From contig JAGBNC010000025.1 of assembly GCA_017634595.1 (NCBI GenBank), forward strand, positions 1 to 64,000: 64,000 nucleotides of DNA. The letters run 5' to 3'. Shown here piece by piece: positions 45,499 through 63,318 of the stretch (position 1 is the stretch's first letter; each line of letters begins with the position of its first letter). The notes under the pieces are model-generated. The model worked only from the letters and a program-made list of their open reading frames with translations, had not been told where the DNA came from and made no database searches. The DNA comes from Bacteroidales bacterium (GTDB lineage Bacteria; Bacteroidota; Bacteroidia; Bacteroidales; UBA932). A program made the position numbers and the translations under genes.

Positions 45499-45506
45499 CA
45501 AATATA
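45499..45506 (-). promoter_or_regulatory. lacI-type regulator promoter -7 box
   Basis: On the - strand TATATTTG matches TAnnTTTG. Transcription would start near 45493, 15 nt before the regulator ATG. The -33 region would fall near 45526, inside the first operator candidate. Confidence 0.65.
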
Positions 45507-45517
45507 ATAATTTTTAA

Positions 45518-45560
45518 TTTTTCCGTTACCGTGCACGATTTTTTCCGTTACCGTGCACGG
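45518..45560. promoter_or_regulatory. Tandem operator candidates for the LacI regulator
   Basis: The 20-bp unit made of five T and CCGTTACCGTGCACG occurs twice without mismatch, at 45518-45537 and 45540-45559, with a 22-bp period (two helical turns). Each copy contains the palindromic core CCGTGCACG, complete as CCGTGCACGG in the second copy. Copy 1 covers the -33 region of the regulator's own promoter and copy 2 that of the GH28 promoter. A dimer on each could shut both promoters, with the two dimers on the same face of the helix. Confidence 0.75.
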
Positions 45561-45576
45561 AATTCAAAAATTATTG

Positions 45577-45584
45577 TATATTTG
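45577..45584 (+). promoter_or_regulatory. Pectin locus promoter -7 box
   Basis: TATATTTG matches TAnnTTTG. Transcription would begin near 45590, 19 nt before the GH28 ATG. No other clear TAnnTTTG promoter is seen in the short gaps down to uxaA, so this may drive the whole 18-kb operon. Confidence 0.65.
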
Positions 45585-47078: not shown

Positions 47079-48730
47079 TAAAGAAAGTTTTCCCTCTTGC
47101 CACTTTGGCTCTTTGGTTAGTGCTGAGTTCTTTCACCATCCATCTGATGGGCGACAGCACAATGGCTGAAAAGGACCTGTCGAACGGCAATCCCGAGCGC
47201 GGCTGGGGAATGATGTTCCAGAATTTTCTGGACGATGGGGCGACAGTCATCAACTACGCACAGAACGGCCGCAGCACCAAGAGCTTCATAGACAAAGGCT
47301 TATGGGACAAAGTACATAGCGCCGTCAAGCCGGGCGATTACGTATTCATCGAATTCGGGCACAACGACTCCAAGGAGTCGGACCCCGAACGTTACGCTGC
47401 CCCATGGGGCGCATATCAAGACAATTTGAAGCTGTTCATCGACGGAGTGCGCGAGAAAGGAGGCACGCCGGTGCTTCTCACACCTGTGGCACGCCGCTGG
47501 TTCAAGGGAGGGAAGCTCGACCGCGGATGCCACGGCGACTACCCCGCTGCCATGAAACAGGTGGCCGAGCAGACCGGCACACCCCTGCTGGATGTTACTA
47601 CTGCCACTCTTGACTGGCTGGAAAAGCTGGGCGACGATGCCTCCAAGGCATATTTCATGATCTCCACAGGCAAGAACGACAACACCCATACAGTAGCCTG
47701 CGGAGCCCGTGAAGTTACAAAGATCGTCTGCTCACTCATAGAGAAGCTGATTCCGCAGATAGCTGAGCATCTGATCCATTATGATATAGTTGTTTCCGCC
47801 GACGGTCACGGAGACTACATGACAGTTCAGGAAGCTGTAAACGCTATACCCGACTACAGCCACGCAGAAATAACTAAAGTGCTCATACGTAAAGGCATAT
47901 ACAAGGAAGAAGTCATCATTCCCCACTCCAAATTCCGCGTGCACTTCATAGGAGAGGATGCTGGTAGCACCGTGATTACCTACGACAAATATGCAAAGAA
48001 GCTCTGGCCCGGGCGCGAGTTTCCCATAGGCACTTCGGGAAGCGCAAGCATCTACATCCACGCCAGCTACATCACTTTTGAGAACATCACCTTCGAGAAC
48101 AGCGCAGGCGAAGGAAAGGACATCGCGCAGGCGGTTGCCGTATTCACCGACGGAGACTTCCTATTCTTCAAGGGATGCCGCTTCATTGGCAACCAGGACA
48201 CACTTTACACTTACGGGCGCTTCGGCAAAGAAGGAGGAATCAAACGCAACTACTTCCTCGACTGCTACATAGAAGGCACCACCGACTTCATCTTCGGACC
48301 AAGCATCGCTTACTTCGAAAATTGCACTCTCCACTCCAAAAAGAACAGCTATGTCACTGCCGCTTCCACACTTAAAGGTCAGAAATACGGCTATGTGTTC
48401 AAGAACTGCAGACTCACAGCCGCACCCGGCATTGACAAAGTCTATCTCGGGCGGCCCTGGGGCGCATACGCCAAGACAGTGTTTATAGACTGCGAACTCG
48501 GGGCGCATATCGTACCTGAAGGATGGCACGACTGGGAGAAAGAAGGCAAGCCGAATACCAAGAAGAACTCATTCTACGCCGAATACGGAAGCACCGGGCC
48601 TGGAGCCTCGGGCCCGAGAGTTAAATGGGCGCACAAACTCAGCAAACGGAAAGTCGCTGAATACGATTTCGACAAAGTAATGTTCCAAAAAGAAGACGGC
48701 ATCATATGGAATCCATACGACAACCGATGA
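47075..48730 (+). CDS. CE12-CE8 fusion: pectin acetylesterase and pectin methylesterase
   Basis: A 551-residue secreted protein of two esterase domains. Residues about 20-235 are an SGNH esterase of the rhamnogalacturonan acetylesterase type (CE12): nucleophile MGDSTMA near residue 25, GRSTKSF, FGHND, and the Asp-x-x-His replaced here by NDNTHTVACGA. Residues about 240-545 are a CE8 pectin methylesterase beta-helix: GNQDTLYTYG near 371, CYIEGTTDFIFG near 400 and YLGRPWG near 457, which hold the two catalytic Asp and the Arg. It removes acetyl and methyl groups so that lyases and hydrolases can act. It overlaps GH28 by 4 bp. Confidence 0.92.
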   Translation: MIKKVFPLATLALWLVLSSFTIHLMGDSTMAEKDLSNGNPERGWGMMFQNFLDDGATVINYAQNGRSTKSFIDKGLWDKVHSAVKPGDYVFIEFGHNDSKESDPERYAAPWGAYQDNLKLFIDGVREKGGTPVLLTPVARRWFKGGKLDRGCHGDYPAAMKQVAEQTGTPLLDVTTATLDWLEKLGDDASKAYFMISTGKNDNTHTVACGAREVTKIVCSLIEKLIPQIAEHLIHYDIVVSADGHGDYMTVQEAVNAIPDYSHAEITKVLIRKGIYKEEVIIPHSKFRVHFIGEDAGSTVITYDKYAKKLWPGREFPIGTSGSASIYIHASYITFENITFENSAGEGKDIAQAVAVFTDGDFLFFKGCRFIGNQDTLYTYGRFGKEGGIKRNYFLDCYIEGTTDFIFGPSIAYFENCTLHSKKNSYVTAASTLKGQKYGYVFKNCRLTAAPGIDKVYLGRPWGAYAKTVFIDCELGAHIVPEGWHDWEKEGKPNTKKNSFYAEYGSTGPGASGPRVKWAHKLSKRKVAEYDFDKVMFQKEDGIIWNPYDNR

Positions 48731-49971
48731 AGAAGTTATTGATAATAACGGCATTAGCCTTGACCGCATGCACGGCCAAGGCTCCGTTGTATCAAGAGGT
48801 CGTTCGTTCCGAGATGTCACGGCACCCTGAGGCGTCGTACATAGACGGCCAAGAAGGCAACTTAAAATGGAACTACACCACCGGCCTGGAACTCAAGGCC
48901 ATGCTCGATGCAGTCATTGCAGAAGCTGCATCAGTGGTTGCTGAAGACGCTCCAGCCGTCTTTGGCCCTTACGAACAGGAGGCCGGAGCATCTTCCACAA
49001 CCACAGCAAAAACGGTCTTAAAGTACGTAAACGACTGGTACGATGCCATCATAGACTCCACAGGAGCAATTGGCGGAAAATACAAGAAAAGCAATTACTC
49101 CCTGGACCACATCTGCCCCGGATGCACCCTTTTCCAACTTTACGACCTCACAGGCAAGGAAAAATACCGTGCGGCCATAGACACCCTGTACCTTCAGCTC
49201 AAAGAGCAGCCGCGCACTGCCGACGGCGGATTCTGGCACAAGAAAGTGTATCCTGAACAGATGTGGCTCGACGGCCTCTACATGGCCCAGCCTTTCTACG
49301 CTGAATACACAATGCGTTACATCCCCGAGCCCCAGCGCCAAGAGAATATAGACGACATAACTAGACAGTTCGCCCTTGCATTCGAGCACTGCTATGATAC
49401 CAACACGAAGTTGCTCCGCCATGCCTGGGACTCCTCACACTCCATGTTCTGGTGCGACCCTGCCACAGGCCAGTCTGCTCACGCATGGGGAAGAGCCATG
49501 GGCTGGTACTGCATGGCGCTGGTCGATGTTATCGGCATCCTCAGCAAGGACAGCTGCCAAGAACTTATAGGGATACTGACCAAAGTGCTCGATGCACTTA
49601 GAGACAATGCAGCCCCCTCGACAGGGCTCTGGTACCAAGTGCTCGACCGCCCCGGCGAGGAAGGCAACTACCTGGAAGCCACTTGCAATGCCATGTTCAG
49701 CTACGCATTCTCGAAAGCAGTGACGCTCGGCATCAGCAAAGACAAACGCTATGCACGCAGGCTCTACAAGAGCATGGTGCGGACCTTCGTGACCACAGAC
49801 AATGACAACGATCTTGTCAACCTGGAACAATGCTGCGAAGTAGCCGGCCTGGGAGGCAAGCAAAACCGCAGCGGTGACTACGAATATTATATACACGAGC
49901 GCGTGCGCGCGAACGACCCCAAAGGTATAGGTCCTCTGATCTGGGCATCAATAGAATACGAGAAATTATGA
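48727..49971 (+). CDS. GH105 unsaturated rhamnogalacturonyl/galacturonyl hydrolase
   Basis: A 414-residue predicted lipoprotein (lipobox ITALALTACTA) of family GH105, an (alpha/alpha)6 barrel that removes 4,5-unsaturated uronic acids left by pectin lyases. Recognised blocks: WNYTTGLELKAML, YSLDHICPGCTLFQLY, FWHKKVYPEQMWLDGLYMAQPF near residue 179 with the catalytic Asp, and AHAWGRAMGWYCMAL near 251. The ATG at 48727 gives a proper lipoprotein signal; an ATG at 48706 does not. Between LKAMLDA and VLKYVNDWYD the protein has about 26 extra residues including FGPYEQE (79-85). These are encoded by a palindromic element that also occurs in uxaA. The gene overlaps the PL1 gene by 4 bp. Confidence 0.92.
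   Translation: MKKLLIITALALTACTAKAPLYQEVVRSEMSRHPEASYIDGQEGNLKWNYTTGLELKAMLDAVIAEAASVVAEDAPAVFGPYEQEAGASSTTTAKTVLKYVNDWYDAIIDSTGAIGGKYKKSNYSLDHICPGCTLFQLYDLTGKEKYRAAIDTLYLQLKEQPRTADGGFWHKKVYPEQMWLDGLYMAQPFYAEYTMRYIPEPQRQENIDDITRQFALAFEHCYDTNTKLLRHAWDSSHSMFWCDPATGQSAHAWGRAMGWYCMALVDVIGILSKDSCQELIGILTKVLDALRDNAAPSTGLWYQVLDRPGEEGNYLEATCNAMFSYAFSKAVTLGISKDKRYARRLYKSMVRTFVTTDNDNDLVNLEQCCEVAGLGGKQNRSGDYEYYIHERVRANDPKGIGPLIWASIEYEKL
48934..49004. repeat. Palindromic mini-element copy 1, inside the GH105 gene
   Basis: Inverted arms of 24 nt (48934-48957 and 48981-49004, 20 of 24 pairs) enclose a 23-nt loop (48958-48980) containing TTTGGCCCTTACGAACAGGA. The loop differs at one base from that of copy 2 in uxaA (62233-62255) and is read in the same frame as FGPYEQE. 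The arms show only weak likeness to those of copy 2. The element roughly matches an in-frame expansion of the enzyme relative to family members. Confidence 0.75.
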
Positions 49972-60358: not shown

Positions 60359-61774
60359 ATGAGCTTTATCAACAAAGACTTTATGCTCCAGACGGAGACA
60401 GCGCGCAGGCTCTACCATGAGCATGCCGAGAACATGCCCATCATCGACTACCACTGCCACCTTGTGCCGCAGCAGATTGCTGAGAACATCCAGTTCCGCG
60501 ACATTACCCAGCTCTGGCTGGTGGACGGCCACTACGGGGACCATTACAAATGGCGTGCAATGCGTGCCAACGGAGTATCGGAAGACTATCTCACAGGGGG
60601 CAAATACAGCGCCTGGGAGACTTTCGAGAAATGGGCGGAGACAGTCCCATATACCATGCGCAACCCCCTCTACCACTGGACGCATCTTGAGCTCAGCCGT
60701 GTGTTCGGCATAGATAAGCTCCTTTGCCCGGCGACGGCCCGCGAGATTTTCGATGAGTGCAACGCCAAACTCGCCACCCCCGAATTCCGCGGACAGGCGC
60801 TCATAAAGAGGTTCAATGTAGAGACTGTCTGCACCACCGATGATCCGGCAGATGACCTGCGCTGGCACAAAAAGATTGCCGCAGAGCCATTTGGCGTCAA
60901 GGTTATACCTGCATGGAGACCGGACAAAGCCATGGCAATCGAGAATCCCAAAGCCTACAAGGAGTATCTGAAAGTCCTTGGCGAGGCTGCAGGGATGGAA
61001 ATAGATTCATATACCGACCTCCAGGAAGCCCTCCAGAAACGGCACGATTTCTTTGCCGAAAACGGATGCAAGCTTTCCGACCATGGGCTGGAGAACTTCT
61101 ACTCATGTGACTACAAGGAAGTGGAGATCGAGCTCATTTTCAAGAAGGTTCTGATGGGAATCGCCCCAGGCCCCAAGGAACTGGAGAAATTCCGCAGCGC
61201 ATTCCTCCACGACCAGGCAGTAATGGATGCCGAGGCTGGCTGGGCCCAGCAGTTCCATATCGGAGCCATACGCAACAACAACTCTCTGATGTTCGAAAAA
61301 GTAGGTGCGGACACAGGCTACGATGCTATCCATGACCAGGAGATAGCGGCAGCAGGGCACCGTTTCTTCGATCGCCTCACACGCGAGGGCAAGCTGGCCA
61401 AGACCATCCTTTATTGCCTCAACCCCAAGGATAATGCCGTCATGATGACCATGGCATACACCTTCAACGACGGCACCGTGCCCGGCAAGATGCAGTTCGG
61501 CTCGGGCTGGTGGTTCCTCGATCAAGAGGTGGGGATGCGCCGCCAGATGGACTCCTTGAGCAACCTCGGCCTTATCAGCCGCTTCGTAGGCATGCTCACC
61601 GACAGCCGCAGTTTCATAAGCTACCCCCGCCACGAGTACTTCCGCCGCATACTTTGCGACGTATTCGGCCGCGACATCGAACAGGGAAAACTCCCCGCCT
61701 CCGAGTTTGACTTCATCGGTAAGATGGTCGAAGACATCTGTTACAACAATGCCAAGCATTACTTTGATTTCTGA
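60359..61774 (+). CDS. uxaC: Uronate isomerase
   Basis: A 471-residue cytoplasmic enzyme of the amidohydrolase superfamily that converts D-galacturonate to D-tagaturonate and D-glucuronate to D-fructuronate. Landmarks are MPIIDYHCHLVPQQIAENIQFRDITQLWL near residue 24 with the metal His pair, GDHYKWRAMRANGV near 60, VCTTDDPADDL near 160, HIGAIRNNNSLMFEKVGADTGYD near 300 and the terminal SYPRHEYFRRILCDVFG. It takes the monomers released by the surface enzymes. Its stop overlaps the uxaA start by 1 nt (TGATG). Confidence 0.97.
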   Translation: MSFINKDFMLQTETARRLYHEHAENMPIIDYHCHLVPQQIAENIQFRDITQLWLVDGHYGDHYKWRAMRANGVSEDYLTGGKYSAWETFEKWAETVPYTMRNPLYHWTHLELSRVFGIDKLLCPATAREIFDECNAKLATPEFRGQALIKRFNVETVCTTDDPADDLRWHKKIAAEPFGVKVIPAWRPDKAMAIENPKAYKEYLKVLGEAAGMEIDSYTDLQEALQKRHDFFAENGCKLSDHGLENFYSCDYKEVEIELIFKKVLMGIAPGPKELEKFRSAFLHDQAVMDAEAGWAQQFHIGAIRNNNSLMFEKVGADTGYDAIHDQEIAAAGHRFFDRLTREGKLAKTILYCLNPKDNAVMMTMAYTFNDGTVPGKMQFGSGWWFLDQEVGMRRQMDSLSNLGLISRFVGMLTDSRSFISYPRHEYFRRILCDVFGRDIEQGKLPASEFDFIGKMVEDICYNNAKHYFDF

Positions 61775-63318
61775 TGAAACACATTAAAATCAACCCCGAC
61801 GACAACGTAGCTGTAGCCCTTCAGGACCTGAAGGCCGGAGACGTCGTGGAGGGCGTAAGCTTGAAGTGCGACGTGCCCCGCGGCCACAAGGTGGTCCTCC
61901 GTGACCTTTCCGAAGGCGAAAATGTCATCAAATACGGCTTCCCCATCGGACATGTCACCCGCCCCGCGCAGGCAGGCACAATGGTTGACCACAACTGCAT
62001 CAAGACCAACCTGGAAGGCCTGCTGGAGTACAGCTACTCCCCCGCCCTGGTGGACATTCCCGAGGCAGCGCAAAAGCGCACTTTCAGCGGCTTCCGCCGC
62101 GCCGACGGGCAGGTGGGCATACGCAACCAGATCTGGGTGATCCCCACTGTCGGCTGCGTAAACGGTATCTGCGAGGAGATCGTCCGCCGCTTCAAGGCAG
62201 AACTGGCCGGGAAAGGGGAACTGCCCCTGAGCGACTTTGGCCCTTACGAACAGGAGCCCAGGGGCAGTTCCCCTTTCGCCGAAAGCTCCGTTGATGCAAT
62301 CGTCGCTTTTCCCCACAACTACGGCTGTTCGCAATTAGGTACCGACCACGAGAACACCCGCACTGTGCTCGCAGACATGGTACATCACCCCAATGCCGGA
62401 GGCGTCCTGGCAGTGAGCCTGGGCTGCGAGAACAATCAGCTCGACGCATTCCGCGAGCTCGTCGGCCCAGTTGACGAAGGCCGTGTACGCATGTTCGTCA
62501 CCCAGAAGGTCCAAGACGAAGTCGAATATGGGCTTCAGCAGCTGCGCGAGATTTACGCTATCTGTTCTAAGGACAAACGTGAGGATGTCCCCGTCAGCGA
62601 ACTGCGTGTAGGTCTCAAATGTGGAGGCTCGGACGGACTTAGCGGCATCACTGCCAATCCTCTGCTAGGCGTCTTCTCCGACCGGATCGTAGCCCAGGGC
62701 GGCACAACTGTACTCACGGAAGTGCCGGAAATGTTCGGAGCAGAGACCATCCTCATGAACCGTTGCCAGGACAAAGCGACTTTTGACAAGACAGTCAGCC
62801 TGATCAACGACTTCAAAGACTACTTCATCAAGCAAGGCATGCCCGTGTATGAGAATCCATCCCCGGGCAACAAAGCCGGAGGCATCAGCACTCTTGAAGA
62901 AAAGAGTCTCGGCTGTACGCAGAAGTGCGGCAAGAGTATAGTCCGAGGCGTACTCAAATATGGTGAGCGTCTGAGTGTCAAAGGCTTGAACCTGCTGAGC
63001 GCTCCCGGAAACGACTTGGTGGCATCAACCGCTCTGGCTGCATCAGGCTGCCAGATAGTGCTCTTTACCACAGGCAGAGGCACACCATTCGGGAGCTTTG
63101 TCCCCACAATGAAAATATCCACTAACACTCCTCTGTTCGAGAACAAACCGGGCTGGATAGATTTCAATGCCGGAGTACTGGCCCAGGACACGCCCATGTC
63201 CGAAGTCTCCGAGCGTTTTATCGACACCGTGCTTGCAATAGCCAGCGGCAAGCATGTCAACAACGAGAAAAACGGCTATCGTGAAATTGCGATCTTTAAA
63301 TCTGGTGTAACTTTATAA
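61774..63318 (+). CDS. uxaA: Altronate dehydratase, carrying a palindromic insertion
   Basis: A 514-residue iron-dependent enzyme that dehydrates D-altronate to 2-keto-3-deoxygluconate. The N-terminal SAF-like domain (KINPDDNVAVALQDLKAGD) and the catalytic part are complete: RRADGQVGIRNQIWVIPTVGC, HNYGCSQLGTDHENTRT, GLKCGGSDGLSGITANPLLG, EVPEMFGAE and the terminal KISTNTPLFENKPGWIDFNAG. Between RRFKAELAGKG and VDAIVAFPHNYG there are about 25 residues including FGPYEQE (155-161) that I do not expect in this family. They are encoded by a palindromic element also found in GH105. UxaB, which links UxaC to UxaA, is not in the window. Confidence 0.95.
   Translation: MKHIKINPDDNVAVALQDLKAGDVVEGVSLKCDVPRGHKVVLRDLSEGENVIKYGFPIGHVTRPAQAGTMVDHNCIKTNLEGLLEYSYSPALVDIPEAAQKRTFSGFRRADGQVGIRNQIWVIPTVGCVNGICEEIVRRFKAELAGKGELPLSDFGPYEQEPRGSSPFAESSVDAIVAFPHNYGCSQLGTDHENTRTVLADMVHHPNAGGVLAVSLGCENNQLDAFRELVGPVDEGRVRMFVTQKVQDEVEYGLQQLREIYAICSKDKREDVPVSELRVGLKCGGSDGLSGITANPLLGVFSDRIVAQGGTTVLTEVPEMFGAETILMNRCQDKATFDKTVSLINDFKDYFIKQGMPVYENPSPGNKAGGISTLEEKSLGCTQKCGKSIVRGVLKYGERLSVKGLNLLSAPGNDLVASTALAASGCQIVLFTTGRGTPFGSFVPTMKISTNTPLFENKPGWIDFNAGVLAQDTPMSEVSERFIDTVLAIASGKHVNNEKNGYREIAIFKSGVTL
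62211..62277. repeat. Palindromic mini-element copy 2, inside uxaA
   Basis: Arms of 22 nt (62211-62232 and 62256-62277) pair at 21 of 22 positions, the outer 19 without a break, around a 23-nt loop (62233-62255) containing TTTGGCCCTTACGAACAGGA. The reading frame through the loop is the same as in copy 1. A perfect 19-bp stem inside a coding region is very unlikely by chance. Confidence 0.8.

Follow-up and report, generated by a model that had tools for sequence, protein, structure and literature searches.

The hairpins inserted in frame in the GH105-like and uxaA genes of the window (the whole 64,000-nucleotide stretch of Bacteroidales DNA that was analysed) belong to a real family of in-frame palindromic mini-elements that combine a fixed tip with a free stem and that are undescribed as far as the searchable literature shows. 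The accepted family comprises 60 copies that represent 32 insertions, all from uncultured gut Bacteroidales. Searches of the open-licence PMC literature found no prior report of this family and no mention of the loop 13-mer or of four encoded peptides, in agreement with an earlier note on this DNA, which knew of no such family in Bacteroidales.

Copies in the window and their host genes

The features of the two copies, in positions of the window, are the following.

48706..49971, plus strand: GH105-like host gene (Pfam Glyco_hydro_88), with the insert read through in an open frame
48907..48932, plus strand: small second hairpin, GATGCAG...CTGCATC, directly left of the GH105 element (from the sequence; included in the fold)
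48934..49004, plus strand: hairpin element in the GH105 gene (sequence and fold; match of model R1 at 48936-49002)
48934-48957 and 48981-49004, plus strand: arms of the GH105 hairpin (sequence and fold)
48960..48978, plus strand: 19-nt core of the GH105 copy, CTTTGGCCCTTACGAACAG, read FGPYEQE (exact match)
61774..63318, plus strand: host gene uxaA (altronate/galactarate dehydratase family), with the frame open across the insert
62207..62281, plus strand: hairpin element in uxaA, 23 pairs (match of model R1 at 62211-62277)
62235..62253, plus strand: 19-nt core of the uxaA copy, read FGPYEQE (exact match)

The GH105 hairpin, described in the earlier note as 24-nt arms around a 23-nt loop, is confirmed by both the sequence and the fold (-34.8 kcal/mol). 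The recurrence of the loop in uxaA with one base changed also holds: the two 23-nt loops differ by a single base (GTC/GAC), and a loop 20-mer recurs at 62236-62255, so that the window contains two exact matches compared to 0.01 expected in shuffles. Both copies read FGPYEQE in the host frame, as had been noticed, and both host frames are open throughout. The uxaA hairpin is the strongest of the five found in an inverted-repeat scan of the window (23 pairs); the GH105 hairpin, with its imperfect arms, fell below the threshold of that scan. The Pfam family of the GH105 host is Glyco_hydro_88 (PF07470), which we take to span GH88 and GH105. Elsewhere in the window, an AT-rich intergenic stretch contains an inverted repeat around a direct repeat, TTTTTCCGTTACCGTGCACG (45500-45581).

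The core is present in 3 of 30 GH105 orthologue loci, the window locus among these, and the interval from KWNYTTGL to DHICPG in the three is 86 (window), 108 and 123 residues long. This interval measures 53-66 residues in 22 of the other loci and 44 in one, and is unreadable in four. The GH105 host carries an insertion of roughly 20-33 residues, judging by the excess of its 86 residues over the 53-66 of the 22 loci; the estimate of about 26 extra residues in the earlier note falls within this range, and the alignment of orthologues that it proposed places 22 of 30 loci without the extra residues (53-66 compared to 86). The second hairpin at 48907..48932 lies within the extra residues as well. 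In uxaA, where 29 of 30 loci could be read, the core is present in three, one of them in the opposite orientation, and the corresponding interval is 60-62 residues with the core versus 37-47 in most of the others (two measures).

Size, distribution and anatomy of the family

At up to 3 mismatches, the source genome contains seven matches to the loop (none in the reversed control), and all seven are hairpins that have the tip in common and differ in the arms. Further copies, for which the earlier note had proposed to search, were found in unrelated genes, each as a hairpin with the same loop. The near matches comprised 72 distinct sequences, 12 of which were removed for low pairing; one (L058) was restored after folding, giving 61, and L159 was then removed as doubtful, giving 60. 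The 32 insertions were grouped by hand, with the oppositely oriented uxaA copy and three copies in one TPR-type gene counted separately. A scan of genome contigs for the 17-mer GGCCCTTACGAACAGGA gave 46 exact matches in 44 stretches. In 30 of these, 14-19 of 19-20 arm positions are complementary, three more fold with a bulge, and the titles of all 33 hairpin-forming matches name Bacteroidales or Bacteroidia. No hairpin is formed by the remaining 13 (3-11 of 20 positions complementary), of which 12 are not titled Bacteroidales; such unpaired matches are unsurprising because, by our own arithmetic, about 30 matches to a 17-mer are expected by chance in 257 billion bases.

Within the genus, 23 of 400 genomes match the core at up to 2 mismatches, some of them by chance. 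Ten 3-mismatch matches that were checked, including two from another family of the order, form no hairpins (1-7 of 20 positions). The covariance model, run on 200 genus genomes as a looser search with strict filters that added few decayed copies, found matches in 13, with 7 in the source genome and 12 in genome G071; the match in G018 looks unlike the family by eye, and the matches in G176 belong to a sister family, 1b. A ygiQ tree of 24 genomes places the 13 that carry the core on one side of a branch with support 100/99, which is to be read as clustering and not as a census because the 11 core-less genomes were taken from earlier hit lists. Viral carriage was rejected, the exact 19-mer matching no stretch in viral contigs. 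Rfam gave nothing at gathering score for 14 loci that included both window copies, and the three sub-threshold matches all come from a single locus (L194).

The elements are roughly 65-100 nt in size, with a long stem under the apical motif CGAC-TTTGGCCCTTACGAACA-GGAG; the form of the motif common to the copies is CGACTTTGGCCCTTACGAACAGGAG. Below the tip there are one or two opposed GA/GA steps and beyond these the stem, which extends over 12 to at least 40 positions (counting ended at 40). Among the 15 columns of TTGGCCCTTACGAAC, 10 are invariant and the remaining 5 are at least 90% conserved across the 32 insertions, represented by one copy each, a conservation that is partly built in because the core itself was the query with which the copies were found (at 0-3 mismatches). 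Subfamilies can be told apart by the tip edge (TTT..CAG, CTT..CGG, ATT..CTG and TTTT..CAT), where the second pair is T-A, A-T or C-G.

The stem is conserved as pairing and hardly as sequence, and only the tip is conserved in sequence. Over 20 positions, the arms of the same copy pair at 81% by the Watson-Crick rule (85% with G-T), compared to 37% for arms swapped between insertions (48% at most in 1000 swaps). Paired cells make up 83.6% versus 48.9% in shuffled alignments, cells with double changes number 287 versus 103.5, and the covariation score is 0.830 versus 0.211, a value that none of 500 shuffles reaches and slid versions approach only to 0.224 at most. The count of pairs changed on both sides is not discriminating (23 of 24 observed, 22.0 in shuffles, 140/500). 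Between insertions, left arms have 34% identity, versus 29% expected by composition; the arms have a GC content of 70%, compared to 53% for the window, and show a faint positional pattern, with C at k 8-11 and a purine at k 15-16. The idea of a palindromic element family put forward in the earlier note thus stands as far as the recurrent hairpin goes, but sequence conservation is confined to the tip and the arms are nearly unrelated.

The host genes are diverse. By Pfam, they encode GH88/105, galactarate/altronate dehydratase, MFS, TsaD-like, Mur ligase, DNA polymerase I, RNA methyltransferase and GHMP kinase proteins; the TsaD-like host is presumably TsaB and the GHMP kinase presumably ispE, and the names ygiQ, hutI, GH3, GH92, aroDA-like, TPR and YfhO-like are likewise our assumed assignments. 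No Pfam family was found for the YfhO-like host. Among the 61 rows, 51 are genic (32 sense and 19 antisense), with reading-frame counts of 16, 11, 5, 18, 1 and 0; the sixth frame, in which the core holds a TAA stop, is used by no copy. The host frame was taken as the longest open one, except in L046 and L076, to which the known uxaA frame was assigned manually. The ten intergenic or uncertain rows come from a hand list that still includes L159. The same core nucleotides encode five different peptides and, given the five frames and both orientations, it is the nucleotides that are conserved and not a peptide. The earlier view of an in-frame element that enters coding genes is borne out in many genes but has to be widened to five frames, both orientations and the 10 of 61 rows that are intergenic or uncertain. 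A role in translational bypassing or as an mRNA signal is unlikely because both orientations occur in genes.

Insertion sites and related palindromes

Empty, flipped and decayed versions of the element sites are found among related species. At sites that are shared between genomes, 16-19 of the 19 core positions are identical, and 4-fold synonymous sites are 34-87% identical. Between unrelated insertions, arm identity has a mean of 14.4 and a maximum of 25 (of 40 positions). Arms at shared sites are alike in same-orientation uxaA pairs (31-38 of 40), tsaB (35), YfhO site 2 (33), rsmE (26-39), one GH92 pair (32) and one GH3 pair (29), and unlike in hutI (18-24), GH105 (10-22), polA (14-19), ispE (11-18), the murE pair (20) and the other GH92 pair (18). 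There is no clock in this divergence: uxaA arms can be identical at 38 of 40 positions with 41% 4-fold identity, and those of the GH105 loci L061 and L083 at 10 of 40 with 63%. Drift alone would leave such a pattern unexplained.

Opposite orientations occur at seven shared sites (uxaA, GH105, GH3, polA, ispE, and YfhO sites 1 and 2). At six of the seven, the arms are no more alike than those of unrelated insertions, so most of these sites may represent separate insertions; at YfhO site 1, arm identity is 26 of 40 versus the between-site maximum of 25, and a flip in place appears to be supported at this site only, barely above the maximum. The sister genomes G023 and G071 (99/97 in the ygiQ tree) have several sites in common, among them the aroDA copy, which is intact in the former and has lost much of the right arm in the latter. 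Tandem repeats of the left arm plus half the tip are present in L042 and L061, and neighbouring copies in L007 and L182. Taken together, the history of the shared sites and the arms of the sister family 1b point to common descent with nearly free evolution of the stem, although the two-way behaviour of the arms leaves room for arms newly made at insertion.

With regard to the origin of the arms, the inner arm sequence is absent from empty uxaA and GH105 orthologues, so the arm is not simply old target, and inverted duplication of the target was rejected as the sole origin. For the one uxaA arm, out of seven, that was tested, a search of the source genome allowing 3 mismatches found neither a second copy with the same arm nor any other source; recent transposition is therefore not visible in the source genome.

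Two further sets of palindromes are present in these genomes. Family 1b (L267, L277, L286-L289 (G176), L284 (G004)) has the CGACTTTG...CAGGAG base in common with family 1 and differs in the apex, AAATTGCGAGCGAAGGCGAAGCAATTTTGTAG. The six of seven G176 copies that were read have nearly fixed arms with uncompensated changes, perhaps the trace of a young burst, and these fixed arms resemble the faint arm pattern of family 1. An unrelated second family in the same genus has 17 copies (L227, L228, L226, L229, L291, L047, L068 and others) and consists of variable arms of 14-34 pairs around a branched module, GTGGCC..GGCCAC-GGGAGGGGCCC-hairpin-GGGAGGG. In the first hairpin of this module, the loop covaries with the strand behind it, which makes a pseudoknot likely (5 pairs, 2 with double changes, with all cells paired in 11 distinct of 17 sequences). 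Family 2 is found in ygiQ in both orientations, and ten loci that carry it or stand at the ygiQ site gave no Rfam match. Other small palindromes occupy the same gene sites in relatives, namely uxaA (L116-L118, L121-L123), GH105 (L084, L093), ygiQ (L218-L247) and hutI (L194, L201, L203, L209, L211), and include TCATTCTGAGCGAAGCGAAGAATCT (HSERSEES), CCGGGAATC-type repeats and a hairpin with arms of about 28 bp. Such palindrome-rich gene sites look like tolerated or preferred landing sites.

Possible modes of movement and known systems

The copies are dispersed, cluster in one clade, tolerate different frames, and are conserved in fold and tip. From the dispersal and the presence or absence between species we infer that the element is mobile, or once was, as the earlier note proposed; no transposition event was seen. 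The reading that we favour by a small measure is that of a non-autonomous palindromic mini-element that would move in trans as a folded single strand, either ssDNA at the replication fork or an RNA copy. A putative trans-acting enzyme would recognise the tip and the fold, so that these alone would persist from copy to copy. After landing, template switching during replication would copy one arm onto the other, which would keep the arms complementary and could flip the tip. Copies would survive in genes because five of six core frames are open and the insertion sites tolerate extra residues. No ends of the element, target duplication, parent transposon or enzyme were found in these sequences, among which no empty site is a close enough relative at the nucleotide level to show a target duplication. 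Template switching has been reported to homogenise arms and invert spacers, in coding DNA too (PMC8604942), and to create and mend stems (PMC8794818).

Among the alternatives, the one that we take most seriously, while considering it doubtful, is that only the tip of about 26 nt moves and that a fresh pair of arms, inverted copies of one another, arises at each insertion through fold-back synthesis or template switching. The arms would then be born different, with no divergence required, consistent with arms that are nearly unrelated between insertions and yet can stay alike for long once inherited, as well as with the lack of a second source for the tested uxaA arm; on the other hand, the inner arm is missing from empty orthologues of uxaA and GH105, and the faint positional arm pattern resembles the fixed arms of family 1b. 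A host function of the hairpin, either as a binding site for a host protein or at the RNA level, with selection on the host maintaining it, would account for the 16-19 of 19 identical core positions at shared sites whose synonymous positions are nearly saturated, but this is an unlikely explanation considering that matches are limited to 23 of 400 genus genomes (some by chance) with few copies per genome, that both orientations occur in genes and that the element is missing from most orthologous sites. Neither chance nor coding constraint nor an artefact of assembly is likely to be responsible: five peptides are encoded by the same nucleotides, the shuffled and reversed controls are empty, and the copies come from MAGs of differently named projects.

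Mobilisation of a REP-like element by RAYT (Y1) nucleases is a natural possibility, given that Y1_Tnp matches are present in 39 of 43 genus genomes at E <= 0.001 (35 above the cut-off) and that in G136 the RAYT gene is followed after 311 nt by a hairpin (L297) of the looser motif GCGACTTT..CAGGAGC. Nevertheless, this origin is very improbable. RAYT genes were sampled from 15 core-bearing genomes, and the 19-nt core, with 3 mismatches allowed, is absent from every one of the 41 neighbourhoods, of which 40 contain a RAYT by our own profile; there is a single 15-nt near match in L324. The tag GT[AG]G is found 0-2 nt from the hairpin foot in 1 of 59 copies (2.8 expected), [CT]GTC at the foot also in 1 of 59, and the source genome has a single sub-threshold Y1_Tnp match (a 139-aa frame) and no RAYT by the RAYT profile. 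Linkage to RAYT was accordingly rejected, the core being absent from all 41 neighbourhoods and the REP foot tags missing. As separate observations, the hairpin behind the G136 gene has a different apex and adjoins further palindromes, and RAYT-like genes are common in the genus (L298-L316, L318-L337), many with short palindromes of their own at one or both ends.

MITE ends are the conserved terminal repeats of a parent transposon; the present element is MITE-like in being non-autonomous, dispersed and of inverted-repeat form, but its arms are not conserved (34% versus 29% by composition). The palindromic elements of Rickettsia (RPEs) are short palindromes of about 150 bp, located in frame in unrelated protein genes and encoding a conserved peptide (PMC10969869). 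The parallel with RPEs drawn in the earlier note is apt for palindromes in frame in unrelated protein genes, with 51 copies in open frames here, and fails for the peptide: the copies, in both orientations, encode five different peptides, and what is fixed is the tip, with the stem nearly free. Judged by description, the element may be said to work like RPEs. Small dispersed hairpins, some of them intragenic, are a trait in common with REPs and REPINs; however, a REP carries a tetranucleotide tag at its foot and has a stem typical of its family, whereas here the tag is absent, the tip is the conserved part, and no sampled RAYT neighbourhood holds the core (0/41). Some GTAG and CGTC repeats lie within genes, and the CGTC type is present in Bacteroidetes (PMC3733652). 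TnpA-REPs with atypical structures have been described in Bacteroidetes, and REP insertions that preserve the reading frame have been reported inside the genes of a tnpA-REP subclass abundant in this phylum, subclass 2.4 (PMC6006769). Arm homogenisation and spacer inversion are reported for template switching in quasipalindromes (PMC8604942). In the present family the arms are homogenised, and opposite orientations occur at seven shared sites, with arm identity slightly above the between-site maximum at YfhO site 1 only; template switching of this kind, however, is a mutation process and not a mobile element, and does not explain a common tip that is dispersed.

A broader view, which we put forward tentatively and with less confidence than the preferred mechanism, is that families 1, 1b and the larger pseudoknotted family 2 form a class of mobile elements defined by fold and not by ends, in which a structured tip would be all that has to be copied and the stem rebuilt or re-randomised, moving as folded ssDNA or RNA with a putative enzyme and repeatedly adding segments to proteins, some of them essential. 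Because in-frame REP insertions are already in print (PMC6006769), what is new is the architecture and the breadth of hosts. Copies sit in many unrelated genes, mostly without breaking them, and in-frame palindromes have entered genes such as those for DNA polymerase I, Mur ligase and a TsaB-like protein. It is usually through conserved ends or feet that palindromic repeats and MITEs are recognised; with the stem and ends free and the tip fixed, the recognition rule must differ here. Dozens of independent stems around one tip amount to a natural experiment on the parts of template switching and selection in the upkeep of pairing, and altogether, the family hints at a new route by which very small pieces of DNA may spread.
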